Source: Laburnicola sp. R22_1
Lineage: Eukaryota; Ascomycota; Dothideomycetes; Pleosporales; Didymosphaeriaceae
Reading direction: 5' to 3'
Length of the DNA stretch: 64,000 nt
NCBI GenBank assembly: GCA_014281115.1
Contig: JACONQ010000005.1
Location: 3,348,001 to 3,412,000 of the forward strand
Shown: piece after piece, positions 9,018 to 64,000 of the stretch
Position numbering within the stretch: the first letter of the stretch is position 1
How the letters are laid out: every line of letters starts with the position of its first letter
Program-made: the position numbers and the translations under genes
The notes under the pieces: model-generated
Databases searched by the model: none
The model's input: the letters and a program-made list of their open reading frames with translations, nothing else
What the model was told of the DNA's origin: nothing

Positions 9018-9019
9018 TA

Positions 9020-11110
9020 AGGTGCATCCCTGGGTAGCGGGACACCCGGTGTGGCGGGACAAATGAGGGGTACTTTGACTTTCAGCCCCTGGAAAGACCA
9101 CGCGCACAACGAATATGGTCATAATTCTGTGAGAATAATCTGCTGTACCTAATCCTGAATGTCTATCACTAATTCTTCCCTAAAAATTACGTTTGCATTG
9201 TCGCCTCCACGCCTAAATTATAAAGCGCCTTCTACTGTGGCATAACAGACTTCCTACCCTATAGCACCAACACTACGTCTTTTTCGCTCTAGATTTTCGT
9301 AAAACAGCCTTGTGCTAGCCCAAAAACCTTACTCTAATGCCCACAAGTTATCTTTAGCCTTGTGCGCGCTATTGCAGGTAAATTCATATAGGGCTGTAAT
9401 GCTGATTGGTACCTCCTGCGGAAGCGAGTGCCGATCCTGGCTAGTGCAGAACAACCCTATACGTCTGACCTCATCGTTAGTGCGTAATGTATCTGTGGCG
9501 GCTGTCAGACCTGTGGCTGTGCAGCGCCGCAGCCAAGCACTGCAGGACATCTAAAATCTGGCTTAGGATTGGGAGCAGGGCCGAGGTTCTGGAGGCCCTA
9601 GCGCTTGTTCAAAGAGAACGACCGCGTCCGCCACCGAAACCGCGAAACCACAATCAGCTTCCGACACAGCCGTCGTACAACATCGTGATATGATACGACA
9701 GCCGACTACGTTTACTTCGGTGGCTTCGACAACATCTATTACGTCGCCCTTAAGCCCTGCAGACCGCTGTTGATCCCTTCGCCGACCGTACAAACCCGCT
9801 CAAACCGAATGTGCTTCCCGGGCACATTATGACCAAGACACATACTAAGCGGCGACTGGATGTCTAGCATAGATTAGGTGCGCGTCTAACATTACAGGTA
9901 TAGCGGCGGACAATAGTGATTGGCATAATAACAAGATTAAAGTCTACGCTCCGGCAAGCGGATTAAGTGTTAATGGCGGAAAGCCACAGTTGCAAGCATA
10001 TGCAAAGGTGGAAGGCGTTGCATATCTTAGTGATACAGCTGTCGCACGGTATACAACAAACAGCTTCTTGCATGGAGCACTGCAATTATTAGCGCCGCAA
10101 AGGGGTGCTCATGTTTGACCTGTACAGACTGCGGGGAGCTTAGCTTGTAAGAAGCTCACGAGGGCTGGGTAAGGTAGAGCAGAGTTGCAGGATAACAGTG
10201 GTGTAGAACTGACCACTAGGTTCTAGGCCGTTTTTATCCAAAATAGTATCTAATGGTGGCTGTGCCTGGCAAGACGCCACACTATTTGTAGCTACGCTCT
10301 ATCCTCTTCTCCTTATCAGCATATGGTCGCCTTCCGCGCAAGGTCAGTGCCGGAGCGGGTCGGCCATCCTCCCTGCTAGCGGTGGCAACTCGAAGTACTA
10401 TCTCATATACGCTGCACCTCACAATGATTTCTAAGCGAACTGCGGTACTTTGGCTATGCTACTTTTGAACTACGTCTAGCCTGCCGCTTTAGAGACCATC
10501 TTTTTGCCACGTCTATCTCTTCTAGGTCTTATTGTGACGGTTGTAGAGAGAGCCGACGGATAAGGAGATACCGATGGGTACAGAGATACCGACGTTTGAG
10601 GTGGAAAAAGCACAGAAGTCTTGGATACTGTGAGACTGCCAGAGGCGGGTATATAGCCACCTCCTCTAGTAGCACTCTAGAAATTAATACAGTCCTTTAT
10701 AGCTTCTAGCTACCGCCACACTTATTCCGCTGGCTAAGCTCTATCGCCTCTAACTGCCATGTTGCAAGAGTTTCGCGAGATAATATAGTAAAGGGATGTT
10801 GAGAACCCAAGGCTACTGTCCGCAGGCCGCAGCAGTCCTCCATTAGTGAGATTGCTTTATTTGTAAGTCCCTAGCCCTTCAACGTAAACGCGAGGTTGGC
10901 CATGCTAGTCAGCGTGTCTGGATGCTCCTCCCCAAGCACCCTCTTTCTCGTCTCCATCACTTGCACGTTCAGCTCTTCGGCCTCCTTCCACCGGCCTTGA
11001 TTCCAAAACGTCAACGCCAGGTTGGCCATGCTGGTCAGCGTGTCTGGATGCTCCTCCCCAAGCACCCTCTTTCTCGTCTCCATCACTTGCACCTCCAGCT
11101 CTTCGGCCTC
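9020..11110. repeat. left arm of the long inverted repeat
   Basis: Reverse complement of 17108-19197. The outer 1.7 kb is noncoding; the inner part covers the last two TPR repeats and C-terminus of the left NLR. In the outer part this arm keeps TGTGGCATAACAGA where the other arm reads TATAGCATAATAGA, i.e. the right arm carries CpA-to-TpA type changes there. A few short open frames occur in both arms only because the arms are copies; none shows coding signs. Confidence 0.88.
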
Positions 11111-11601
11111 CTTTCACCGCCCTGCAAGACTTGCTGCTAACCCTGCCATTGCCATACTGCTTAACGTGTCTATATGCTCTTTCCCAAGCTGCTTTTTCCT
11201 AACCTTCATTGACTTTATTGACAGTTTCGCTGCATCACCCACATTTCCTTTTTGCCACGCATACCATGCTGCATTGTACAACAGCAGAGCCCACTGTCGG
11301 AGCGATTCCTCAGACTTAGGCGACTGCGATAGCGCTGACTTGGCGTGCGGAAAGAGCGCCTGACATTGGACCCAGTTCTTGTGCTCCCCTGTTGGAAATG
11401 CTGCGCAAAGACTGCGAATATACTCTTCCTTCCACATTTCAAGTTGGTCCTGCTCTTTTAACCACTTCCGCATGGCTAGCTGCACAAGCCTGTGCATTTC
11501 GAACGTGCTAGAATTGGTGGTAACCCCGATAAACGAGTAATTTCTTAGCGTGACAATGTCCTCTTCAAATCTGTCGTCAACGCTTGCTTCTGATTCGTTA
11601 T

Positions 11602-11602
<1 letters not shown>

Positions 11603-11650
<48 letters not shown>
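11603..11650. repeat. hexanucleotide microsatellite (GTCGCT)8 inside the left NLR
   Basis: Eight perfect GTCGCT units on the plus strand, read on the minus strand as alternating Asp-Ser codons between the NB-ARC region and the TPR part of the left NLR. The unit length keeps the frame, so length changes would only lengthen or shorten an acidic linker. Confidence 0.95.
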
Positions 11651-11651
<1 letters not shown>

Positions 11652-12989
11652 TCTTCACCGTCTCTATGAATGGCTGCTTCATCACTGCGTCTGTTGTCTG
11701 CCCTATCTTGGTTGCGAAGGAGCGCCTCAGGAATCCCTTGCCGGTCAAAAAAGCTCATTAATGACAGCAGGTCTGCTGCTGACCGCCTTGCTTGGAGGAT
11801 GTGCTCAAACGAAATTTGCCATGTTATAAGGATAGAGTTCTCAGCTTCTTCGTCTCTCCGGAGACGGCCTCCGTCGTGCTCTAGTAGGCCTGTTCTTTTC
11901 TTGTCGCTCTTGTAGAACTCCTCTAGGTATTGCTGCACCGTACACCTGGGTGCTCGTTGTCGGATGTACGCCGCCGCCTGCACGAGAGCAAGTGGCATGA
12001 ACTCGAGGGCCCTTGCTAGCTCAGTAATGCTGTCCTCGTCCACCTCCGCTCCCAACTTCTTTCGTAAAAGCTCTTGGCCGCTCGTGTCATCCATGGGCTC
12101 AATAGATAGGATATCGTTCTCCTCCACTAGCTGCAACGCCACGCTCTTCGTCCGACCAGTCACTAGCACCGAGCCGTTCTTACTCTGGGGTAGATACGAC
12201 GAGAGGAGCCGTGGACGAGAGCCATCTCCGCTGCTCGCCTGTGTCGTTATGTCATTGCTTACTGGCAGAGTAAGGGCAGCAGCGTTGTCGGCATTATCGA
12301 GGACCAGCAACCAACTGCCGTTCTTCTCGTTACGCAACCAGTTATGAACCAGCTTGAAAATGTCTGCTTGCGGATCGTTCCGGCCAGCCAGCCTGACCTG
12401 GTCTGCAATGTCTCGGTAGCCTTGTTCGATGCGGGCCGCGTTGCTTGCATGGACCCAGAACACCCACGTCTCTGGAGATGCCTCCTCGGTTCGATAGCAG
12501 TGCTCGATGGCGAGTTGCGACTTTCTGTCTCGGCGTTAGCAAGGTGCACTGGCCTCAGATTCTCCTAGCTCACCCCACACCGCCCAGGCCCACCAGTGCT
12601 ATGCGCGATCCCGGGGCAGCGCATTTCTCGCGTATCTGATCGAGCAGCGTTCCGCGGTCGACGAAGTCCGGGTCGCGGCGGAAGGGGATGGCGCAGGAAG
12701 GGACCGGCGGGGTCTCTGGTCTAGCTAGAGATGGTATTAGCTATGGCCAGGAGCGCGGCGACTTGCCTGGAGCGACCAGTAAACAAGCGCACCCATTTTA
12801 ATAGCATTCAAGGCCGAGTTTACCTGGTGGTAGATGGATATGTGCTAACACAGGTACGGTTAGTACGGATTTGTCAAAGTGTACTGTACTAGGCACGCTA
12901 TGAACAGATGCTAGTGAAGTAAGAGACACTGCCTCAATTAAGAAGTTGGTGTGACTACGTGAGAAGGATAACTACGTACTCGAAGGGCC

Positions 12990-13097
12990 CTCATTGTATA
13001 CCCTAGGATTGTTGATCTGCCGGTTGTTGCTTCCACCAACTAAATAATTCGTAGGACTGCCGCCTTCATTGGCAATAATGTTGCCTGCTCCAGTGTG
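12990..13097 (-). other. candidate amyloid-type signalling motif in the SesA NLR
   Basis: Residues about 168-203 of the left NLR, between the SesA-like domain and the NB-ARC linker: GNIIANEGG followed by NYLVGGSNNRQINNPRVY. It is rich in Gly, Asn, Ser and Thr with spaced hydrophobics. Sigma-type and HET-s-type motifs in fungal STAND systems have this kind of composition. Similarity is by eye only; it could be a plain flexible linker. Confidence 0.35.
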
Positions 13098-13598
13098 TGT
13101 ATACTTGCCGTCCTCATTATTCGCTAGTGCTTCCGTAACTTGCTGCAGTGCATCCAGCTTGTCGCCAATAACATAGATCTCCTTCTGCTCCAAAAGTCTT
13201 AAGTTGTCTTGAATAGTCACCAGAAGCTTCTGTACCTGGCTGTCTCGGCCGAAGAAGACAGCCTTTGCGCCTCTCCAGATGCGCTTGGTACGATTCTCCC
13301 CATCTTTTGGGCAGGCTTTCCTAAATATGTCCCTTAGTCCACCCAAAGCCTCCTCGCACTGTTTCAAAATCGGCTGTGCGCTCTTGCTAGCATCCTCCGT
13401 GATCCTCCCTTCCTCGCAGCTCTCCTGCGCACTTTCTAACAGTTCTTGGATCGCTGGTAGCTTTTCGAGCAGGTCTCGAAGCTTTGGTGGTAATCCTTGA
13501 GCATCGTGGACGGCACGCCCGATGTCGATGATTGTATTAGCGATGCCGATGCAAGCGTCGATCAGTTGGATGGCGGTAATGGCTTCGGCACCAGACAT

Positions 13599-14230
13599 TT
13601 CGGATCATCGGTGCGTACACAAGCTGGGTGCGGCGGGCAGGTATAGGCGCGTATTCCAAAGGCAGGAGGGTACACTTATAAGTAAAACCACCAAAAATAG
13701 TGAAAATGATTGTTGAAGATAGGCTGTGAAGGCGGCATCTCGAGGCTGTGTACTAGAGGCGCTCGGTGGGCTCAGCCCCGCCCGGCTGACTTGCTCAGGC
13801 TCAGGCTCCCAGTTGTGGCTGGAGGTTGCGGACCTGAGGCGCGCAGCAGGACAGGCTCGCCTCTTATCAATATCACTCCACCCAGCCGGTAGGATGCTAA
13901 GCCTGCAAGGCTTATTTCCTCAATGCCGCATCGATTAAGTTAAATTAGCAAGCAGATAAAATTTGTTGAATTGCTTGCGCATGTTTGCGGGCGAACACGA
14001 GACAAGAGCGCTCGCCTGAGCAAGTCAGCCGGGCGCGGCTGAGCACGTCGAGCGCCCCCTGTGCACAGCCTTGGGAGGCCGCCCTCGCAACCCATACTCG
14101 GCCATCATATTCCACCGACCGCGCTTTCTCCCACAATCCATATCCACCCATCTTAGCCAGTTCCTAACAGCGCCTTGCCCTGGATTGTCTGTATTTTCTG
14201 CTTCCTCGACTGAGAAACGATGTGGTAACG
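13599..14230. promoter_or_regulatory. bidirectional promoter region of the two NLR genes, with a central inverted repeat
   Basis: About 630 bp separate the two divergent start codons. Within it, 13741-13802 and 14012-14082 are imperfect inverted copies sharing GGCTGACTTGCTCAGGC and its complement, with further matches outward (GGCGCTCG, GGCTGTG). This could be a small palindromic MITE of about 340 bp or the trace of an inverted duplication of promoter DNA. Promoter elements themselves were not recognised. Confidence 0.5.
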
Positions 14231-15031
14231 ATGCGGCTTCTTCACTTCAATCATTCCAAGAGACTCGTCTTGACCAACTTCAGCGGGAAGACCATTCCAC
14301 GCTATGCTATCCTTTCACACAGATGGGGAGATTCTGAGATTCTCTTCGAAGATATCGGAGGCAACACCTACAAAGAGAAGAAGGGTTATCGAAAGATCGA
14401 GTTCTGTGCGGAACAGGCGGCCAAGGACCAGCTTCAGTACTTCTGGATCGACACGTGTTGCATTGATAAATGGAACCTTCGTGAGCTCTCGAGAGCAATC
14501 AACTCGATGTTTCGTTGGTACAGAGATGCAGCAAGATGCTATGTTTTCCTACCAGATGTTTCAGCACCCACTGCAGCTGACATGCGCGAAGAACGTGCGT
14601 GGGAGGCATCCTTTCGGGCGAGCGAATGGTTCACTAGGGGCTGGACGCTTCAAGAGCTTATTGCTCCAGCATCAGTCGAGTTCTTTTCTTTCGAAGGACG
14701 GCGGATAGGCGATAAACAATCCCTCGAGCAGCTACTACACGACATTACTGGCATTCCAGTCCAGGCCTTGCGGAACTGCCCATTGGACGGATTTACTATA
14801 CCCAAGCGAATGGAATGGGCCAAACATCGCCGGACAACTGAAGAGGAAGACGGGGTATACTGTCTTCTCGGACTTCTCGACGTCTTTATGTCTACTTCCT
14901 ATGGCGAGGGAAAGGAGCAGGCGTGGAGAAGACTCCAAATTGAAGTGGAAGCAGCCGGTTCAGCTCCGGCTATCATCCCGTTTTCCCAGAACGACCATTT
15001 TGTTGGCCGGGGTCACAGCTTGCCGAACTAG
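14231..15031 (+). CDS. HET-domain protein, N-terminal part of a HET-NB-ARC-TPR gene
   Basis: Begins MRLLHFNHSKRLVL, the usual start of this family; an in-frame ATG at 14222 is possible. HET (heterokaryon incompatibility) motifs are clear: IPRYAILSHRWG, QYFWIDTCCIDK, MFRWYRDAARCYVFLPDV, SEWFTRGWTLQELIAP, then the C-terminal part EEDGVYCLLGLLDVFM and YGEG. HET domains trigger cell death when non-self is sensed. The frame ends at 15031 shortly after NDHFVGR. Reading one base out of frame from 15013 continues directly as SQLAELEATLF into the NB-ARC domain, so this and the next feature are probably one gene split by a single-base loss in the GGGG run at 15009-15012. Confidence 0.85.
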   Translation: MRLLHFNHSKRLVLTNFSGKTIPRYAILSHRWGDSEILFEDIGGNTYKEKKGYRKIEFCAEQAAKDQLQYFWIDTCCIDKWNLRELSRAINSMFRWYRDAARCYVFLPDVSAPTAADMREERAWEASFRASEWFTRGWTLQELIAPASVEFFSFEGRRIGDKQSLEQLLHDITGIPVQALRNCPLDGFTIPKRMEWAKHRRTTEEEDGVYCLLGLLDVFMSTSYGEGKEQAWRRLQIEVEAAGSAPAIIPFSQNDHFVGRGHSLPN

Positions 15032-15066
15032 AAGCAACGCTCTTCACGGGCAAGGAAACCACAAGG

Positions 15067-17511
15067 ATGGCAATAACCGGACCACCGGGGACAGGCAAAT
15101 CACAGCTAGCGCTCGAGCTTGCATACCAGACAAGACGGAAGAATAAGAGCTGCTCGGTCTTCTGGATTGATGCAAGCAACGCAGACAGCCTCTATCAGTC
15201 ATATGCGAGCATTGCGCAAAAGCTTGACATTCCTGGCTGGGCAGATGAGAAGGCGGATATCAGGCAGCTGGTCAAACTTCATCAAAGCAGAAAGGGGTCA
15301 AGGCAGTGGTTGCTCATTTTCGACAACGTGGATCGCATAGACCTGGGGTCCAGCGGGATGCCCACAGCACCAGGGGCCGCCAACTTGATCGACTACCTGC
15401 CACAGTCCGAACTCTGTTCGATCATCTTCACGACTACCAACAGCAAGATAACTGAGAGGCTAGAACTACAGAAGGTTGTGCAGCTTAGGGAAATGACGCC
15501 CGATGTAGCAAGAAGGACGTTGCAGAACTATTTAAAAACTCCAGTTTCAGAAAGTGAGCAACAGGAGGCGAGACTTTTGCTGCAAGAGTTATCGCATCTT
15601 CCCCTAGCAATTGTCCAAGCAGCAGCGTACATCAACACCAGAAACACTACGCTAGAACACTACCGATCACAATTGCTGAAGCAAAAGGGGGAAGCTCGCG
15701 AGCGTAGCCGTGTACCATTAGAGGGCAGGCTACAAGAATATGACACAACAGGTCCTGTAGCCACCACACTTCTTATCTCAATGGACCAGATCCGCGGTAG
15801 TGATCCACTAGCAGCAGAATATCTGTTTCTTGCGGCCTCGGTAGACCGAAAAGACATCCCGCTCGATCTTCTAGAAGCATTATCGCCTTGTGAAAGGGAA
15901 GCTGCGATACAAATCCTCAACAGCTACGGGCTTGTTACTAGGCGACCTGCCGAATCTGCGCTCGATGTTCACCAGCTAGTACATAGTGCTCTACGGGGAT
16001 GGCTCCAAAAGCACGAGAGGCTAGAGCAATGGAGTCAACACGCTATTGCACGACTACTTAGAATGTTCCCAGACAATAATCACGGAAATCAAAGCAAATG
16101 GAGACGATTAATTCCCCATGCTAGGTATGCTCTATCTCACGATGTTCCTAAAGAAGAGAAGGGAGATAGGATAGACCTAGCATGGAAATGCGCTATGGCA
16201 TTGCTCACTGACGGACGATATGACGAGGCCGAAGAGCTGTTTGTGCAAGTGATGGAGACGTTCAAGAGGGTGCTTGGGGAGGAGCATCCAGACACGCTGA
16301 CCAGCATGGCCAACCTGGCGTCGACGTACAGGAATCAAGGCCGGTGGAAGGAGGCCGAAGAGCTGGACGTGCAAGTGATGGAGACGAGAAAGAGGGTGCT
16401 TGGGGAGGAGCATCCTTCCACGCTGACCAGCATGGCCAACCTGGCGTCGACGTACAGGAATCAAGGCCGGTGGAAGGAGGCCGAAGAGCTGGAGGTGCAA
16501 GTGATGGAGACGAGCTCGAGGGTGCTTGGGGAGGAGCATCCTTCCACGCTGACCAGCATGGCCAACCTGGCGTTGACGTTTTGGAATCAAGGCTGGTGGA
16601 AGGAGGCCGAAGAGCTGGAGGTGCAAGTGATGGAGACGAGAAAGAGGGTGCTTGGGGAGGAGCATCCTTCCACGCTGATCAGCATGGCCAACCTGGCGTC
16701 GACGTACAGGAATCAAGGCCGGTGGAAGGAGGCCGAAGAGCTGGACGTGCAAGTGATGGAGACGTTCAAGAGGGTGCTTGGGGAGGAGCATCCTTCCACG
16801 CTGACCAGCATGGCCAACCTGGCGTCGACGTACAGGAATCAAGGCCGGTGGAAGGAGGCCGAAGAGCTGGACGTGCAAGTGATGGAGACGAGAAAGAGGG
16901 TGCTTGGGGAGGAGCATCCAGACACGCTGAGCAGCATGGCCAACCTGGCGTCGACGTACTGGAATCAAGGCCGGTGGAAGGAGGCCGAAGAGCTGGACGT
17001 GCAAGTGATGGAGACGAGCTCGAGGGTGCTTGGGGAGGAGCATCCAGACACGCTGACCAGCATGGCCAACCTGGCGTCGACGTACAGGAATCAAGGCCGG
17101 TGGAAGGAGGCCGAAGAGCTGGAGGTGCAAGTGATGGAGACGAGAAAGAGGGTGCTTGGGGAGGAGCATCCAGACACGCTAACCAGCATGGCCAACCTGG
17201 CGTCGACGTACAGGAATCAAGGCCGGTGGAAGGAGGCCGAAGAGCTGGAGGTGCAAGTGATGGAGACGAGCTCGAGGGTGCTTGGGGAGGAGCATCCAGA
17301 CACGCTGACCAGCATGGCCAACCTCGCGTTTACGTTGAAGGGCCAGGGACTTACAAATAAAGCAATCTCACTAATAGAGGACTGCTGCGGCCTGCGGACA
17401 GTAGTCTTGGGTTCTCAACATCCCTTTACTATATCATCTCGCGAAACTCTTGCAACATGGCAGTTAGAGGCGATAGAACTTAGCCAGCGGAATAAGTGTG
17501 GCGGTAGCTAG
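15067..17511 (+). CDS. NB-ARC-TPR part of the HET NLR, with nine near-identical TPRs
   Basis: 814 residues from the ATG at 15067; the same frame is open from 15013, joining the HET part. Walker A GPPGTGKSQLALELAYQ, Walker B RQWLLIFDNVDR, IIFTTTNSK (RNBS-B like), GLPL-like LSHLPLAIVQAAAYI, and an MHD-like HQLVHSALRGWL region place it in the NB-ARC STAND ATPases. From about residue 387 come nine TPR units of 42 residues (pattern EAEELxVQVMETxxRVLGEE), then a diverged last unit (GQGLTNKAISLIEDCC) and the C-terminus. It would work as ligand sensor (TPR) plus nucleotide-switched oligomer (NB-ARC). If translated alone without HET it would lack its effector. The 3' end lies inside the right inverted arm and matches the 3' end of the left NLR. 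Confidence 0.88.
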   Translation: MAITGPPGTGKSQLALELAYQTRRKNKSCSVFWIDASNADSLYQSYASIAQKLDIPGWADEKADIRQLVKLHQSRKGSRQWLLIFDNVDRIDLGSSGMPTAPGAANLIDYLPQSELCSIIFTTTNSKITERLELQKVVQLREMTPDVARRTLQNYLKTPVSESEQQEARLLLQELSHLPLAIVQAAAYINTRNTTLEHYRSQLLKQKGEARERSRVPLEGRLQEYDTTGPVATTLLISMDQIRGSDPLAAEYLFLAASVDRKDIPLDLLEALSPCEREAAIQILNSYGLVTRRPAESALDVHQLVHSALRGWLQKHERLEQWSQHAIARLLRMFPDNNHGNQSKWRRLIPHARYALSHDVPKEEKGDRIDLAWKCAMALLTDGRYDEAEELFVQVMETFKRVLGEEHPDTLTSMANLASTYRNQGRWKEAEELDVQVMETRKRVLGEEHPSTLTSMANLASTYRNQGRWKEAEELEVQVMETSSRVLGEEHPSTLTSMANLALTFWNQGWWKEAEELEVQVMETRKRVLGEEHPSTLISMANLASTYRNQGRWKEAEELDVQVMETFKRVLGEEHPSTLTSMANLASTYRNQGRWKEAEELDVQVMETRKRVLGEEHPDTLSSMANLASTYWNQGRWKEAEELDVQVMETSSRVLGEEHPDTLTSMANLASTYRNQGRWKEAEELEVQVMETRKRVLGEEHPDTLTSMANLASTYRNQGRWKEAEELEVQVMETSSRVLGEEHPDTLTSMANLAFTLKGQGLTNKAISLIEDCCGLRTVVLGSQHPFTISSRETLATWQLEAIELSQRNKCGGS
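16225..17358 (+). repeat. tandem array of nine 126-bp TPR-coding repeats
   Basis: Nine copies of exactly 126 bp, each encoding 42 residues. Nearly all differences fall at a few codons: the residue before VQVMET (Phe/Asp/Glu), the pair before RVLGEE (FK/RK/SS), DT or ST after EEHP, and the STYR/LTFW/STYW block. The rest is almost invariant, which points to recent unequal exchange or gene conversion. The left NLR holds two such repeats in inverted orientation at about 10880-11115. Confidence 0.95.
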
Positions 17512-19197
17512 AAGCTATAAAGGACTGTATAAATTTCTAGAGTGCTACTAGAGGAGGTGGCTATATACCCGCCTCTGGCAGTCTCACAGTATCCAAGACT
17601 TCTGTGCTTTTTCCACCTCAAACGTCGGTATCTCTGTACCCATCGGTATCTCCTTATCCGTCGGCTCTCTCTACAACCGTCACAATAAGACCTAGAAGAG
17701 ATAGACGTGGCAAAAAGATAGTCTCTAAAGCGGCAGGCTAGACGTAGTTCAAAAGTAGCATAGCCAAAGTACCGCAGTTCGCTTAGAAATCATTGTGAGG
17801 TGCAGCGTATATGAGATAGTACTTCGAGTTGCCACCGCTAGCAGGGAGGATGGCCGACCCGCTCCGGCACTGACCTTGCGCGGAAGGCGACCATATGCTG
17901 ATGAGGAGAAGAGGATAGAGCGTAGCTACAAATAGTGTGGCGTCTTGCCAGGCACAGCCACCATTAGATACCATTTCGGATAAAAACGGCCCAGAACCTA
18001 GTGGTCAGTTCTACACCACTGTTATCCTGCAACTCTGCTCTACCTTACCCAGCCCTCGTGAGTTTCTTACAAGCTAAGCTCCCCGCAGTCTGTACAGGTC
18101 AAACATGAGCACCCCTTTGCGGCGCTAATGATTGCAGTGCTCCATGCAAGAAGCTGTTTGTTGTATACCGTGCGACAGCTGTATCACTAAGATATGCAAC
18201 GCCTTCCACCTTTGCATATGCTTGCAACTGTGGCTTTCCGCCATTAACACTTAATCCGCTTGCCGGAGCGTAGACTTTAATCTTGTTATTATGCTAATCA
18301 CTGTTGTCCGCTGCTATACCCATAATGTTAGACGCGCACCTAATCTATGCTAGACATCCGGCCGCCGCTTAGTATGTGTCTCGGTCATGATGTGCCCAGG
18401 AAGCACATTTGGTTTGAGCGGGTTTGTACGGTCGGCGAAGGGATCAACGGCGGTCTGCAGGGCTTAAGGGCGACGTAATAGATGTTGTCGAAGCCACCGA
18501 AGTAAACGTAGTCGGCTGTCGTATCATATCACGATGTTGTACGACGGCTGTGTCGGAAGCTGATTGTGGTTTCGCGGTTTTGGTGGCGGACGCGGTTGTT
18601 CTCTTTGAACAAGCGCTGGGGCCTCCAGAACCTTGGCCCTGCTCCCAATCCTAAGCCAGATTTTAGATGTCCTGTAGTGCTTGGCTGCGGCGCTGCACAG
18701 CCACAGGTCTAACAGCCGCCACAGATACATTACGCACTAACGATGAGGTCAGACGTGTAGGGTCGTTCTGCACTAGCCAGGATTGGCACTCGCTTTCGTA
18801 GGAGGTACCAATCAGCATTGCGGCCCTATATGAATTTACCTGCGATAGCGCGCACAAGGCTAAAGATAACTTGCGGGCATTAGAGTAAGGTTTTCGGGCT
18901 AGCACAAGGCTGTTTTACGAAAATCTGGAGCGAAAAAGACGTAGTGTTGGTGCTATAGGGTAGGAAGTCTATTATGCTATAGTAGAAGGCGCTTTATAAT
19001 TCAGGCGTGGAGGCGACAATGCAAACGTAATTTTTAGGGAAGAATTAGTGATAAACATTTAGGATTAGGTACAGCAGATTATTCTTACAGAATTATAACT
19101 ATATTCGTTGTGCGCGTGGTCTTTCCAGGGGCTGAAAGTTAAAGTACCCCTCATTTGTCCCGCCACACCGGGTGTCCCGCTACCCAGGGATGCACCT
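17108..19197. repeat. right arm of the long inverted repeat
   Basis: Inverted copy of 9020-11110. It contains the last two TPRs and stop codon of the right NLR, then about 1.7 kb of noncoding DNA with no recognised gene. Small transitions against the left arm, such as TGG to TAG type and CA to TA, look like light RIP. It ends AGGGATGCACCT before the TA at 19198-19199. Confidence 0.88.
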
Positions 19198-19393
19198 TAG
19201 TCATCATGATTGGCAAACGCAGTCGACTTTTTAGAATCATCACATATCGCACAAAGTACACAAGATCATGATTTAACCTTCATTCATTCATTCAATAGTT
19301 CACCTAAGAGCCGATGCCGACGCCGGCGTACGATGTCACTCATACCTGCGCCCAGCACGCCCTACCCAAGGATATCCGACTAATCTCACGTTC

Positions 19394-19678: not shown

Positions 19679-20361
19679 TTTTGGTGGATTGGTAGAGTGG
19701 TGTAAGGTGTGGTGTAGGGTTGAAATGTGTTGATGTGTTGTTTGGAGTGTTTTGACTCTTGATGGAGATATGAGGGCATACGATAAGACGGTTTATATGC
19801 GTGCGGAGACGGCGTGGTTGTCGTCATAGAGTGGTAAGAGGTATGCCACATGCACCGCGTTTGCATCAGTGCTGCATCGCTGGCGCATCGCACATCGCAA
19901 GTATGATGACATCCTGTCCATAGACGTCAACGAACAGGTAGTGGTACCTCCTTGCAGGACGAACGCACCCCGATTCCGATCACCGCAGCTTCCCAACCCC
20001 ACAGGTGCCTCTCTCCGCCTCCCAATTTCGCCATCTACATCACCATGACTCTCCCCATCGAGCACAACTCCGGAATCGCGAAACAGCACCGTAATAACAT
20101 GACGTCTACATGTCGCACACTAACCGCACAAGACACCCCGGTAGCTGGGTACTTCAGATACTGAAAATAGGGTTGAGCTAGTGAGCCATTTAGTTGATGA
20201 TCTGGGCGTCGAAAAGTGGAGAAGTGCTTGTTTAGAGGCCCTGGTGGCTGGGCGGATCGGCGGCGCTAGACTTGTTCCTGGTAGAGCACGTGACGGCGTG
20301 ATGTCGCGTTTACGTGAACGTGATGGTTGGTTTTGGGTTGGCTGGCAGTTAAGCTCGGCTA
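19679..20361. other. intergenic, no gene recognised
   Basis: 5' flank of con-10 up to the first base of element C. No convincing reading frame. The right end reads into AAGCTCGGC, half of a palindrome that seems to be the insertion target of elements C and E. Confidence 0.45.
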
Positions 20362-21868
20362 TAAGCTTGGCGACCTAGAAGCTGATCAGGCCTAGAAGCT
20401 GATCACCCCACCAAAACGCGCACCCCTCAGAAAAGACGCGTTTTCTATCAACACCCTTCATGAATACGGACGTACGCGAGCAGGCTATACAATTAGCTAT
20501 TGACGATTTGAATGCAGGCATTTATACTAGCCAGCGCGCAGCTGCTCGGGCGTACGGCATCCCTCAGTCTACTCTCTCGACCCGTATCCATGGCTCAGCT
20601 AGCCGACGCGCTGCTCACCAACACCAGCAGCGGTTGACACCGGAGCAAGAGAGCTTCTTAGTAGAATGGATCCTTGAGCAGGATATAAACGGCTACCCTC
20701 CCTCACACGCGCGCGCGCGAGAAATGGCCAGCCAAATCCTTCAAATGAATGGCGACCTCGAACCTCTAGGCCAGCGCTAGCTACTATACTTTATCAAGCG
20801 CAACCCACGCGTCGCCTCTGTTATTGGGAGAAAGCTGGATACTAGTCGCGCTGAGGCAGCTACTCCAGAACAGATCCACGCGTTTCTTGAGCTCTTTGAG
20901 CGCGTCAGAATCAGGCTAGGCATACAGGCAGAGAATATCTAGAATATTAATAAGACTGGTATTGCCCTCAGTGTAGGTGTCAACTCCAGAGTGCTCGCAA
21001 ATAGCCAGAAAAAGAAGGCTTACATCAAGTCGCCAGAGAATCGCGAGTGGGTCTCAATAATTGAGGCTGTATCAGCTACAGGGCGGAAGCTACCCTGCGC
21101 CGTTATATTCAAAGGCCAGAGCCTACAGACAACCTGGTTTCCAGCATCTATACCAAATTGGCTCTATACAACCTCAGAGAATGGGTGGACCTCGCAGGAG
21201 ATAGGCCTTGAGTGGTTGCGCCGGCTCTTTCTACCAGGAACAGCGCCTATAGGTAGTCAATACCGACTACTTCTCTGCGACGCGCATAGTAGCCACGTGC
21301 ATATTAATTTCCTCTGGGCTTGCAAGCAGGCTCGAGTACACCTTCTATTTCTACCAGCTCATTCAACACACCTCCTACAGCCACTAGATCTATCAGGGTT
21401 CTCAGTTATTAAGTCAAACTATAGAAATCGAATACGCGACCTAGCGAGCCTCGACGACGCCGCGCCTATTAAGAAGGAGCGATTTATTTCCTACTACCAC
21501 CTAGCTAGAGAGGAAGGCCTCTCAGAGAAAGTGATTCGGGCTGGCTGGCGCGCTGCTGGCTTTATTCCCTACAATCCTAATCGGGTGATTCAATCCTCAC
21601 AGGTTATAGGCAGGCCAGTAACGCCACAACGCCTACCTCAGGACGTCAGCGCGATCGATACGCTCTATCGCACCCCTCAGAAACCCCAGGACGTGTACGC
21701 GGCTCAGAAAGCTATTGAAAGGTCAGAAAATCTATCAAAACCTACGCGCCGACTACTCCAGAAAGCAAGCAAGGCAATACCGTGGGTCACCACCTCGTGC
21801 ACGGCCCCACCTCGTGCACGGCCAACACCAAATCTCTCGTACTTTCAGAATCGCTTTACACCACCAAT

Positions 21869-23887
21869 ATACACCCAATAGAGGCTGCCCTAGAGTCGTT
21901 AAAATTGCTAAAGCTTAGAGAGAAGCCTAATTATACTCAGACTGCGAAAAAGTACGGTGTTGATCGAACGTTGCTGTCGAAGCGTCACCGCGGGGTTATC
22001 GGCAGCTATGCGGAGAAAGTCGATAATATGCGCCTTCTTAACTCTACACAGGAAACTAAGCTCGTACAATATATTGATAAGCTCTATGTACAAGGGCTAC
22101 CACCTACAAGGGAGATGATACGGAATTTCGCAGCAGAAATAGCAGGAAAAGAGCCAGGAAAAAACTGGGTTGATCGCTTTATTGCGCGGCATCACATTAA
22201 GCTTGTATCTTGATGGGCATCCAGCATCGATTCCACACGCCACAGAGCTAACTCTGCCTTTAAATACGCCCTATTTTTTAAGCTCCTGGACCAGAAGATA
22301 ACTCAGTACGATATCGAGGCTCGCAATATCTACAATATGGATAAGAAAGGCTTCTTAATCAGGGTGCTGTCAAAAATGAAGCGCGTGTTCTCCCGCCATT
22401 GATATGATCACGGAGGCGTTAAACAAGCACTCCAGGACAGCAACAGGGAGTAGATAACTACGATAGCCTGTATTTGCGCCAACGGCAGCTATCTCACGCC
22501 TGCGCTAATTTATCAGGCTGTTTCTGGCAAGATACAAGACTTATAGCTTCAAGATTTCGACCCTACAGAGCACAAAACCTTCTTTGCCTCATCGCCCAGC
22601 GGATAGACCAACAATAAGCTAGGGCTCGCATAGCTTGAACAGGTGTTTAATCGCGAAACAAAAGCAAAGGCAAGACGATTATATCGTCTACTTATCCTTA
22701 ACGGCCATGGCTCACATATATCGATGGAGTTTATCAAGTTTTACAACAACAATCGGATTCTTCTGGCCGTCTATCCTCCCCACGCTACCCACACCTTGCA
22801 GCCGCTCGACGTCTGCCTTTTTAAGCCTCTATCAACTGCCTACTTAAACGAGCTCTCCAAGTTCATGTATAGTTCCTAGGGCATCTCCGCGATTACAAAA
22901 AGAGACTTCTTCCGCTTGTTCTATAAGGCCTGGCATACAACGTTCAAGGAAAAGACGATCTTAACGGCTTTTAAAGTCACAGGGCTTTCGCCGTTAGACC
23001 CAGAGGCTATACTTAAGAAGTTCAAAATAGAGGAGACTGAGAGGCCCTCGTCAAGCGATAGTACTACTTCCGTACTCAGCGCTTCAGATTGGAGAAAGAT
23101 TGAGCGACTACTGCGCCAGGTAGTGGAGGATATCTGTTGGCAGGAGCCCTTGGGGCACCTGGCAGGTGCTGGTCGTCTCATTGTTTACACACTATTATGT
23201 AATAGTGCTATATAGCAGATCTTCCGATCAGCTCAATCCAAAAACATTACATTCCACTTTCTTCAATATCTACGATCGACGCTCCCAACAGCTAAGCCAG
23301 ACGATTCACGTGATGGCTGTACAAAAACAGCTCCTCCAGCATGAAAACGAGCGACTCAGAGGGGCCCTTGTCAATGAGAAGAAGCGCCGTCAACGTGGCA
23401 AGCCTCTATTACTTGAGGCACCGCAGGAGTATAATGGTGGAGCTATATTCTGGTCGCCATCCAAAGTTAAGGACGCCCGCGATCGCCAAGCACAAAAAGA
23501 TGCCGACGAGCAGCTACTACAACAACAGAAGTCCGAGGAGATTAAGCGTAGGGAGCAGCAGAAGCAGGAGAAGGCTACCATGCTTGAAGAGAGGCAGCGC
23601 ATGAGAGAGGTGGCCAAAGAAATACGCCTTCAAGAACAGCGCGAGAAGGCCGTGCAGCGCGAAGAAGCTAGGATCGCGCGCGAAGCCAAAAAGCAACTCC
23701 AACAAGACATACAATTCTCCAAAAGGGTAATAGACGCCGTCCAAAGGCCTTTGCACCACCTCCTCAAGTCGCTAAGGAGACAGAGGATGTTGGTGTGGAT
23801 ATATCATCTGTAGTTGATGTGGTGCCTACACCCGGCCCTGCCACGCGCACCCGCAAAGTACGCCTTCCACAGAGGTATCGCACGTAG
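21869..23887 (+). pseudogene. RIP-damaged Fot1-like transposase of element D
   Basis: Aligns with the transposases of elements A and B from the first residues (HPIEAALESLKLLKLREK). The start codon position reads ATA instead of ATG (21869-21871), a G-to-A change. Stops follow KLVS, FSRH and DSNRE, among others. Catalytic blocks remain readable (MDKKGFLI, LLILNGHGSH with Asp changed to Asn, LQPLDVCLF). The coding sequence is split at 23130-23270 by a solo LTR and then continues YDRRSQQLSQ to a basic tail. Confidence 0.85.
23135..23265. mobile_element. 131-bp solo LTR inside element D
   Basis: An insertion that starts TGTTGG and ends TTCA (TG..CA form) and is flanked by the 5-bp direct duplication ATATC at 23130-23134 and 23266-23270. 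Removing it and one ATATC restores the transposase frame (VVEDI then YDRRSQQ). These are the marks of an LTR retrotransposon reduced to one LTR by recombination. Only one LTR is present; there are no internal genes. Confidence 0.75.
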
Positions 23888-48495: not shown

Positions 48496-48604
48496 GTCTC
48501 CTTGGTGTAGTTGGTTATCACGTGGGTCTCATAGTGCTAAATGCTGTGACTGCTCCAGAAGAGCAGATATCCCAAGGTCGCCAGTTCGAGTCTGGCAGGG
48601 GACA
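48496..48604 (+). tRNA. tRNA-Met(CAT), elongator type, with a 35-nt intron
   Basis: Acceptor stem GTCTCCT pairs with AGGGGAC at 48597-48603, discriminator A at 48604. The D arm contains TGGTGTAGTTGGTTA, the T arm is GCCAG-TTCGAGT-CTGGC, and the B box GTTCGAGTC is present. The anticodon arm is TGGGT-CTCATA / A-TCCCA with anticodon CAT at 48530-48532 and a T-T (pseudouridine pair) at the stem base, as in yeast elongator tRNA-Met. The intron 48534-48568 sits just 3' of position 37, the standard place. Confidence 0.85.
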
Positions 48605-62886: not shown

Positions 62887-64000
62887 CAGTCAACTCTCGT
62901 TATAACGATTAATCCGTGCACAGCAAATTCTATCGTTATATCGAAATATCGTTTAATCGATGATTATTAAGCTAGTCTTGGCGGACTTGCAGCCACTCCG
63001 AAATTGTTAACTGCCTCATACTTCTGATTAACTAAGCTTTCAACGACCTCTCTAGCCGCTTCATATAGGATATATCCTCATACTTTGCAGTCTCCTGATA
63101 CTCCTAATAGCAGAGTAGAACCTGTATAGCCTGAAGAGCCTCTGCAACGCTTGGAGCAGGAGGAGGTAGCACCTCCTCCTCTTCCTCTAATCCTTGAACA
63201 AGCCCTAGCTGAGCAACTACGATATCCTGTAGGGATGTATCCTCCTCTTCCTCCTCTAAATCCTCATCTACTGGATTGAGAAAGTTCTCTATAGCCATAG
63301 GATCCTGGATCTGGCCAGCCTGGGCAGCAGCCTGATATAGACTCTCTATTGGCTCCTCTCTATTAAGTCCAGAGCTAGGATCTAGCCACCTCTTCGGGAT
63401 GCACGTGCTCTTGATGTAGCAGTGTAGGATAGTAGTATCCTTAATATCGAGCAGCCATGATTCAGCTATCCAGTGGAGCGTATAGAGAATCGTCATGAAT
63501 TTGAATGGATTAAGGCCAAGGTTGTAGTGTTTAACCATGAACGCTAGCCACTGCCTCCAGTAGTAGGTCTTGAAGTTCTAGATAATACCCTGATCAAGAG
63601 GCTGATACATGCTTGTTGAGTTCTTTGGTAAGAGCTAGATTGCGATATTGGACAGAGGCGGCGATTGTTAAAGGCCAGAAAGATGGGCCGAGTAGTTGTC
63701 TATAAGAAGAACAACCTTCCTTAAGCCAATATAGCTATAGAATGCAGCAAGCCACTCAGCCATAATAGATGTGTTTACCTAGCCCTTCTTGGAGGCCCCC
63801 CAGACACAGCTAATAGCTAATATATTAACTCCTCGCAAAGCTCGAGGCTGTTTTGACTTTCCTATCACCTATGGTGCTACGCGCTCAGTACCAGTAGCGT
63901 TGCAGCAGAGCATAATAGATACCCTAGCTTTATCTTTCTTAACACCAGGCATTGAGGCAGTAGCTAGCCCTCTTGATATTGCCCACCTCTAGTATAGCCC
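62887..64000 (-). mobile_element. left end of a pogo-like transposon (element F), cut by the window edge
   Basis: After a TA at 62885-62886 the sequence begins CAGTCAACTCTCGTTATAAC, the kind of tip known from pogo/Tigger-like elements, and continues with several TATCGTT/TCGAAATA repeats. It lacks the 17-bp-spaced double motif of the Fot1-like ends. A damaged transposase runs inward on the minus strand. The other end is outside the window. Confidence 0.75.
63104..64000 (-). pseudogene. pogo/Tigger-like DDE transposase, damaged, 5' part outside the window
   Basis: Readable on the minus strand: a CNATGTERVAP-YVIGKSKQPR-like block, VLLIDNYSAHLSGL with a catalytic Asp, and MYQPLDQGII with another, then stop codons at expected Trp or Arg positions. 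The open piece 63104-63538 covers the C-terminal region (HYNLGLNPFKFMTILYTLHW) and ends with an acidic Glu/Pro-rich tail (DEDLEEEEEDTSLQDI). This family differs from the Fot1-like elements in the rest of the window. Confidence 0.7.

Follow-up and report, generated by a model that had tools for sequence, protein, structure and literature searches.

A stretch of 64,000 nucleotides from the genome of the fungus Laburnicola sp. R22_1 (the window, C22:3348001-3412000 in a 63.9 Mb assembly of 26 contigs) contains a block of ~10.2 kb, made up of TA, positions 9020-19197 and a second TA, in which two genes of the NOD-like receptor (NLR) type lie between long inverted arms. We conclude that this block belongs, as a non-autonomous element with NLR genes as its cargo, to a multi-copy, TA-targeting family of terminal inverted repeat (TIR) transposons of the Tc1/mariner type, most likely Fot1/pogo-like, a reading to which we give a probability of roughly 85%. 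The window copy itself appears to be a damaged member of this family, and we infer its own jump from its sister elements, several of which have recognisable empty sites elsewhere in the genome. Numbers without a contig refer to positions in the window, and elements elsewhere are named by their contig.

A tip family with TA at both ends

The ends and arms of the element are as follows.

9018-9019, no strand: left TA target site, read from the sequence
9018-9052 (C22:3357018-3357052), plus strand: left 35-nt tip, family pattern with 0 mismatches
9037-9061, plus strand: GCGGGACA twice, starting at 9037 and 9054, 17 bp apart, putative transposase-binding repeats
9018-11123, plus strand: left inverted arm, 2,106 nt
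17094-19199, minus strand: right inverted arm, 2,106 nt, 97% identical to the left arm
19165-19199 (C22:3367165-3367199), minus strand: right 35-nt tip, family pattern with 0 mismatches
19198-19199, no strand: right TA target site, read from the sequence

At either end of the element the tip, TA included, is exact, and a 19-nt tip string has exact matches in the genome at these two ends only. Across the family the tip reads TA-AACGTCCNTCCCTG-like, followed by two GCGAGACA-type repeats 17 bp apart. A 15-nt tip pattern gave 58 matches as against 11 with the reversed pattern, and when up to 3 mismatches were allowed a 35-nt pattern gave 101 genome matches (100 places listed) as against 0 with the reversed control, so that the tip pattern is no product of chance. 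Independent copies share their TIRs, as is seen both in these counts and in an alignment of 28 tips. Within the left arm the stretch 9018-9480 is the part conserved in the family, and the first ~456 bp of the arm recur at 38 other genomic places at 69-77% identity among the best 40 of 59 candidates.

Convergent tips less than 25 kb apart form 35 pairs in the genome, drawn from both tip-pattern listings and from tips read at C4:775391, on C5 near 404959 and at C7:1370682. Eleven elements were examined, which are 5-21.5 kb long with arms of up to 7.6 kb, and all 11 have TA at both ends. One of them, C26b (C26:694043-710616), has 7.6-kb inverted arms of 99.4% identity around a DUF6601 gene, with a whole NLR frame of ~4.1 kb inside each arm. 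Two of the tip pairs, C8:1671725-1673579 and C13:311283-313137, are both exactly 1,855 bp long, the size of a lone Fot1-like element, and are candidates for the autonomous partner.

Empty sites of sister elements

The flanks of the 11 elements were joined with a single TA to give queries of 222 bases and searched in the same genome, with the best 40 candidates scored per search (of 704 and of 540); C4:2515300, C26:530000 and the C3:328042-334447 element stood outside this test. Joined flanks were matched elsewhere in the genome for 6 of the 11 elements, three of them cleanly (C20, C21 and C26a). Two empty sites of the C20 element, which carries the same NLR pair as the window copy, lie at C20:3226479 and C8:1633077 and cover all 222 bases at a printed identity of 100%. 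Their bit score is 397 and that of the best equally long row 401, a difference corresponding to about one mismatch. Matches over all 222 bases were likewise found for C21 (5 empty sites, 96-99%) and for C26a (34 empty sites, 97-100%). The junction is spanned by 19 rows at 79-93% for C25 and by 2 rows at 82% for C23, and 3 rows for C8 cross it by only ~20 bases. The sister elements have inserted precisely at TA, that is, they have moved, and the TA target duplication of Tc1/mariner elements is seen in the uninterrupted one-TA matches of C20, C21 and C26a.

The empty sites of the C21 element (C21:1186056-1191397) are C10:1473273, C8:1649695, C3:85802, C20:3238622 and C24:2315547. They lie ~0.5-4.5 kb away from HET matches, and the element has therefore probably inserted into another HET-carrying repeat.

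Receptor genes between the arms

Between the arms lie two divergent NLR-type genes, a SesA-NLR running leftward and a HET-NLR running rightward, with nucleotide-binding (NB) domains and tetratricopeptide repeat (TPR) arrays.

11114-12535, minus strand: NB domain, DUF7779 and start of the TPR array of the SesA-NLR, ending at a stop that is premature relative to the C20 copy
12972-13604, minus strand: SesA-domain exon of the SesA-NLR, open frame of 210 aa
13605-14167, no strand: upstream region common to both divergent genes
14168-15031, plus strand: HET-domain frame of the HET-NLR
14944-17511, plus strand: NB-ARC domain and TPR array of the HET-NLR, in a frame other than that of the HET domain

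The same pair is borne by the sister element C20:2036595-2046934, where the HET-NLR has its HET, NB-ARC and TPR parts in a single 985-aa frame and the NB-TPR exon frame of the SesA-NLR is 972 aa. The C20 copy has the fungal NLR layout of effector, NB and repeat domain; the window copy has the same domains in broken frames, with a frame break between HET and NB-ARC in the HET-NLR, unbroken in C20, and an in-frame stop early in the TPR array of the SesA-NLR, the C20 counterpart of which is open. As read, both window genes are damaged, with sequencing error a possible cause in either. The P-loop of the SesA-NLR NB domain is apparently divided by an intron. Relatives of the HET-NLR that come with organism names are fungi (120 of 2,311 matches listed), which we take to be mostly Pleosporales. 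Pairwise ratios of nonsynonymous to synonymous change (dN/dS) of the cargo are 0.19-0.41 in six comparisons, some on few changes, and the window-C20 values of the HET gene are each based on just 7-8 changes. By analogy these NLRs may act in allorecognition.

The two arms align over 2,106 nt with 65 differences and 0 gap columns. Among the differences are 57 transitions, 30 of them in a CpA context, and 8 transversions, a pattern that looks like mild repeat-induced point mutation or deamination. The inverted repeats are more than transposon ends, since the inner ~400 bp of both arms are homologous to the 3' TPR/tail portion of NLR genes: ~10722-11123 of the left arm matches the 3' coding tails of NLRs and the end of the HET-NLR frame is the inner part of the right arm. 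A first-pass annotation of this stretch had described exact inverted tips with TA flanks, collinear arms and two different NLR architectures facing away from each other, and this much is borne out. It had also given the arms a net offset of 1 bp, which the lack of any gap column excludes, and had regarded both genes as complete, which their broken frames contradict.

What the family carries

The first-pass annotation had also proposed that other copies be sought by their tips and their cargo listed, and doing so placed a listed HET, SesA or NLR match within 16 of the 35 tip pairs. Tip pairs cover 0.48% of the genome and contain 11 of the 150 listed HET matches (153 in total), compared with 0.72 expected. 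Ten loci hold HET-NLRs that share 63% identity or more with the C20 copy over a full or nearly full HET-NB span, and nine of them are tip-bounded. C7:1373487, counted among the nine, showed a left tip alone, and the remaining locus, C7:917866, is decayed. The HET/NLR types carried are SesA-NLR, HET-NLR, HET-NACHT-WD40 and lone HET, and further cargo includes an OTT_1508-like deaminase, a GRF zinc ribbon, DUF6601, ankyrin proteins and a PD-(D/E)XK nuclease. The C21, C8 and C26a elements are tip-bounded with no HET/NLR match in the scans made.

The 21.5-kb element C1:180740-202268 holds two HET matches, one of them in a HET-NLR, together with ankyrin proteins, one with an SsdA_C deaminase-like end, and a PD-(D/E)XK nuclease. 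Its cargo is a mixture of conflict genes.

A candidate transposase family

Transposase pieces with HTH_Tnp_Tc5 and DDE_1 Pfam domains, which we take as marks of Fot1/pogo elements, lie in both C3 arms and in the right arm of C7, both NLR-carrying relatives with the same kind of tip. A search with the N-terminal part of the C3 transposase listed 150 rows, 37 of them at 37% identity or more (the family) and 113 other Fot-like rows at 24-31%. A same-strand tip lies 612-661 bp upstream of 4 of the 37 family rows (C3:315767, which is the query's own locus, C20:1984501, C22:2808958 and C3:333463) and of 0 of the 113, and a tip of any kind lies within 12 kb of 16 of the 37 compared with 5 of the 113. 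When two overlapping pairs are merged the 37 rows become 35 places, and on an NLR list that is a typed selection a HET, SesA or NLR match lies within 5 kb of 11 of these, the C3 arms and C7 included, compared with 5 of the 113. The family tip has an 8-mer repeated at +20/+37, and two Fot1-like elements nested at these loci have 9-mers at +19/+36 and +21/+38; repeats of this kind may well bind the transposase.

At C5:1362433 an open 598-aa transposase of the family with a DDE_1 match lies between two outward-facing NLR-type genes (C5:1359362-1365845).

Several other transposases were considered and set aside. The one at 20350-21881, close to the element, was rejected as its driver because its own tip, TAAGCTCGGCTATA, belongs to a different Fot1-like family, which is also nested at C4:776843-778636. 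At C4, the transposase at C4:776943-778604 belongs to a 1.8-kb element that is nested there and has TIRs of its own, and that at C4:779034-780638 looked nested from its flanks in six-frame output. A genome-wide DDE_1 search, with 2,759 first-look candidates of which the best 150 were scored, was of little help for pairing. The pieces at 20350-21881 and about 22037-22864 are decayed Fot1-like transposase remains, the second being a DDE-type tblastn match.

Reassortment of cargo and ends

Compared in 250-bp bins, the window and C20 elements are 98-100% identical over the HET gene block outside the TPR array, 82-97% over the SesA block and 50-79% over the outer ~1.2 kb, and their synonymous divergence (dS) is ~0.02 for the HET gene and 0.17-0.36 for the SesA gene. 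The two halves and the ends thus have different histories, which lends no support to a pair that travels as a single fixed unit. At C7 the left tip (C7:1370682) and the right arm that accompany the pair belong to different subfamilies, the arm being of the C3 type; this locus had looked like a tipless copy of the pair, a view given up on finding the left tip and the C3-type right arm, although the right tip was not seen. Over the tip-proximal 450 bp an element's own arms are mutually closest in 6 of 11 cases (window, C23, C21, C26a, C1 and C3). These patterns fit homogenisation of arms within elements together with exchange between elements, among other possible histories, and nested insertions probably disturb the arm comparison for C4 and C3.

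We suggest that a transposase of the DDE_1/HTH_Tc5 subfamily acts in trans on the tips, the link being one of co-location, and would shift the NLR cargo by cut-and-paste. Conversion within an element would keep the long arms alike, and the arms could also serve as recombination handles through which the same receptor genes gain new ends and partners.

Points against the transposon reading

A number of observations weigh against our conclusion. The window copy has no empty site in its own genome, its flanks matching only themselves among the best 40 candidates, and its insertion is therefore judged from its relatives; C26b, C3, C1 and C4 also gave no empty site among the best 40 candidates, and as these candidates alone were scored the missing sites are weak evidence. 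A tblastn search of 9018-19199 with two transposase fragments gave no match, which is why the element is called non-autonomous, and the DDE transposase that an autonomous Tc1/mariner element would hold is lacking from the window copy. The tip expected at a set distance accompanies just 4 of the 37 family rows, and some rows, such as C5:1362433, are hundreds of kb from any listed tip. The 37% cut was set after the list had been viewed, with two loci counted twice among the 37 rows, and the excess of HET, SesA or NLR matches is weaker at 8 kb (11 of 35 against 9 of 113). A more distant Fot-like piece, of 24-34% identity, lies in the C23 arms, so other Fot-like elements nest here too.

The remaining points concern the tips, arms and cargo. 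Chance neighbours are possible among the 35 tip pairs, two of which are shorter than 1 kb and several 20-22 kb long. In 5 of the 11 elements (C20, C26b, C8, C25 and C4) the arm of another element is closer than the element's own. At C6:161889-175900 the sequences beyond the two tips stay identical over 1,491 bp or more, and since this palindrome outgrows the element the locus points to an inverted duplication of larger extent or to an assembly effect. The HET enrichment counts related copies in a family that was found starting from an NLR-bearing copy, so the cargo census is biased.

Alternative explanations

The most serious alternative accepts the transposon and disputes its cargo, holding that an ordinary non-autonomous element, which neither favours immune genes nor profits from them, amplified a few captures. 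The presence of other cargo (the OTT_1508-like deaminase, GRF zinc ribbon, DUF6601 and ankyrin proteins), the fact that the HET-NLRs in the elements are mostly of one family and the damaged state of the window copy all speak for it, while the placement of 11 of 150 listed HET matches in so small a share of the genome, the several HET/NLR types carried and cargo dN/dS below 1 speak against it; we regard it as rather unlikely. The opposite extension of the transposon reading, that a Fot/pogo-like branch is a dedicated NLR/HET carrier in which receptor pairs travel with their own transposase (as may be the case at C5:1359362-1365845) and long arms containing TPR tails act as sites of exchange that build new pairs from effector halves, sensor repeats and transposon ends, is put forward tentatively, as a possibility that falls short of even odds.

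A composite transposon would arise if the arms were Fot-like transposons in their own right that, in opposite orientation, had trapped the NLRs between them, moving singly or jointly. Decayed transposase in both C3 arms and the C7 right arm, the different subfamilies of the two C7 ends and the two 1,855-bp tip pairs of lone-element size are in line with this. Among the loci searched, however, the C3 and C7 arms and the neighbourhood of the C3:334447 tip alone gave close transposase matches, the Fot-like piece of the C23 arms is a distant one, and the insertion sites show insertion of whole elements. We consider a composite nature rather improbable; it is compatible with the transposon family proposed here and could be its origin.

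Inverted or segmental duplication of NLR loci, with the tips as conserved gene flanks and no transposition, would account for inner arms that consist of NLR coding tails, for the C6 palindrome that runs past its tips and for the whole NLR frames within the C26b arms. It sits poorly with the single-TA empty sites of six among the 11 elements, which are clean for three, with tips that also bound C21, C8 and C26a, where the scans made gave no HET/NLR match, and with the two flanks of each of the 11 elements, which are unlike outside the tips. For C20, C21 and C26a this explanation is largely refuted, and overall we consider it very unlikely. That the block is Starship cargo or a Starship relic is hardly credible, since, although HET/NLR genes are described as Starship cargo in the accounts of PMC9594970 and PMC9815663, the TIRs, TA target and 10-kb size do not agree with it and a Pfam scan of four frames of the element gave no DUF3435 match.

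The absence of a DUF3435 captain had been remarked upon in the first-pass annotation, and its view of the block as a non-autonomous cut-and-paste carrier at TA, distinct from Starships, is supported by the tip family, the TA ends, the sister empty sites and the DDE_1 transposase family. Its picture of a pair moving as one unit finds no support in the differing histories of halves and ends.

Other features of the window

A tRNA at 48496-48604 is the sole Rfam match in the window and its length could accommodate an intron; ARAGORN with the bacterial code reported no tRNA, this place included. At 63416-63931 there is a decayed transposase with a DDE_1 match and five stop codons.

Relation to known carriers and significance

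A TA target is a property of the Tc1/mariner (ITm) superfamily, and Fot1 is a pogo-family element according to the part of PMC7325037 that deals with them. The present family resembles Fot1/pogo-like elements in its TA target, its TIRs, the DDE_1 and HTH_Tc5 transposase of its relatives and the pair of short repeats close to the tip, whose 17-bp spacing recurs in two Fot1-like elements of this genome; it differs in its length of 5-21.5 kb, its long arms and the immune-type genes that many copies carry, and in that the window copy has no transposase match. ToxhAT reportedly has TIRs and is, by its name and by repute, a hAT element, and it differs from the family described here in that class and in its effector cargo. 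Its likeness lies in being a 14-kb cargo-bearing fungal transposon, as outlined in PMC12506042 and PMC6737239.

Fungal NLRs have been described as transposon-borne, with Starships cited (PMC9815663), and the carriers of NLR/HET genes named in the sections concerned of PMC9594970 and PMC9815663 are Starships or Starship-like. Both they and the present family are mobile fungal DNA with HET/NLR genes, but Starships employ a DUF3435 tyrosine recombinase (PMC9594970), in contrast to the TIRs, TA target and DDE-type transposase family seen here. Among those described in PMC9594970, Horizon and Icarus carry HET/NACHT/NLR genes, and Icarus of Pyrenophora tritici-repentis is the nearest in kind, with TIRs, DDE genes, NLR/HET genes and no captain; it is 294 kb long and disabled, as its authors suggest, and is set apart here by its description and not by its tip. 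Pyrenochaeta lycopersici shows a HET expansion with 42 HET genes near transposable elements, for which the account in PMC6034849, as far as it goes, concerns proximity only and describes no carrier with defined ends or empty sites. Our literature search by title and abstract, of partial coverage, found no TIR/Fot1 or Fot/pogo-type fungal NLR carrier, though one may exist.

The causes of the rapid growth and turnover of fungal NLR and HET repertoires are an open question. The family described here offers a vehicle that is much smaller and simpler, its ends defined and its target known, with a candidate transposase and several NLR/HET types within one genome, and because its exact tips are available the carrier idea is testable. 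Such elements may provide a route for the shuffling of fungal immune repertoires.

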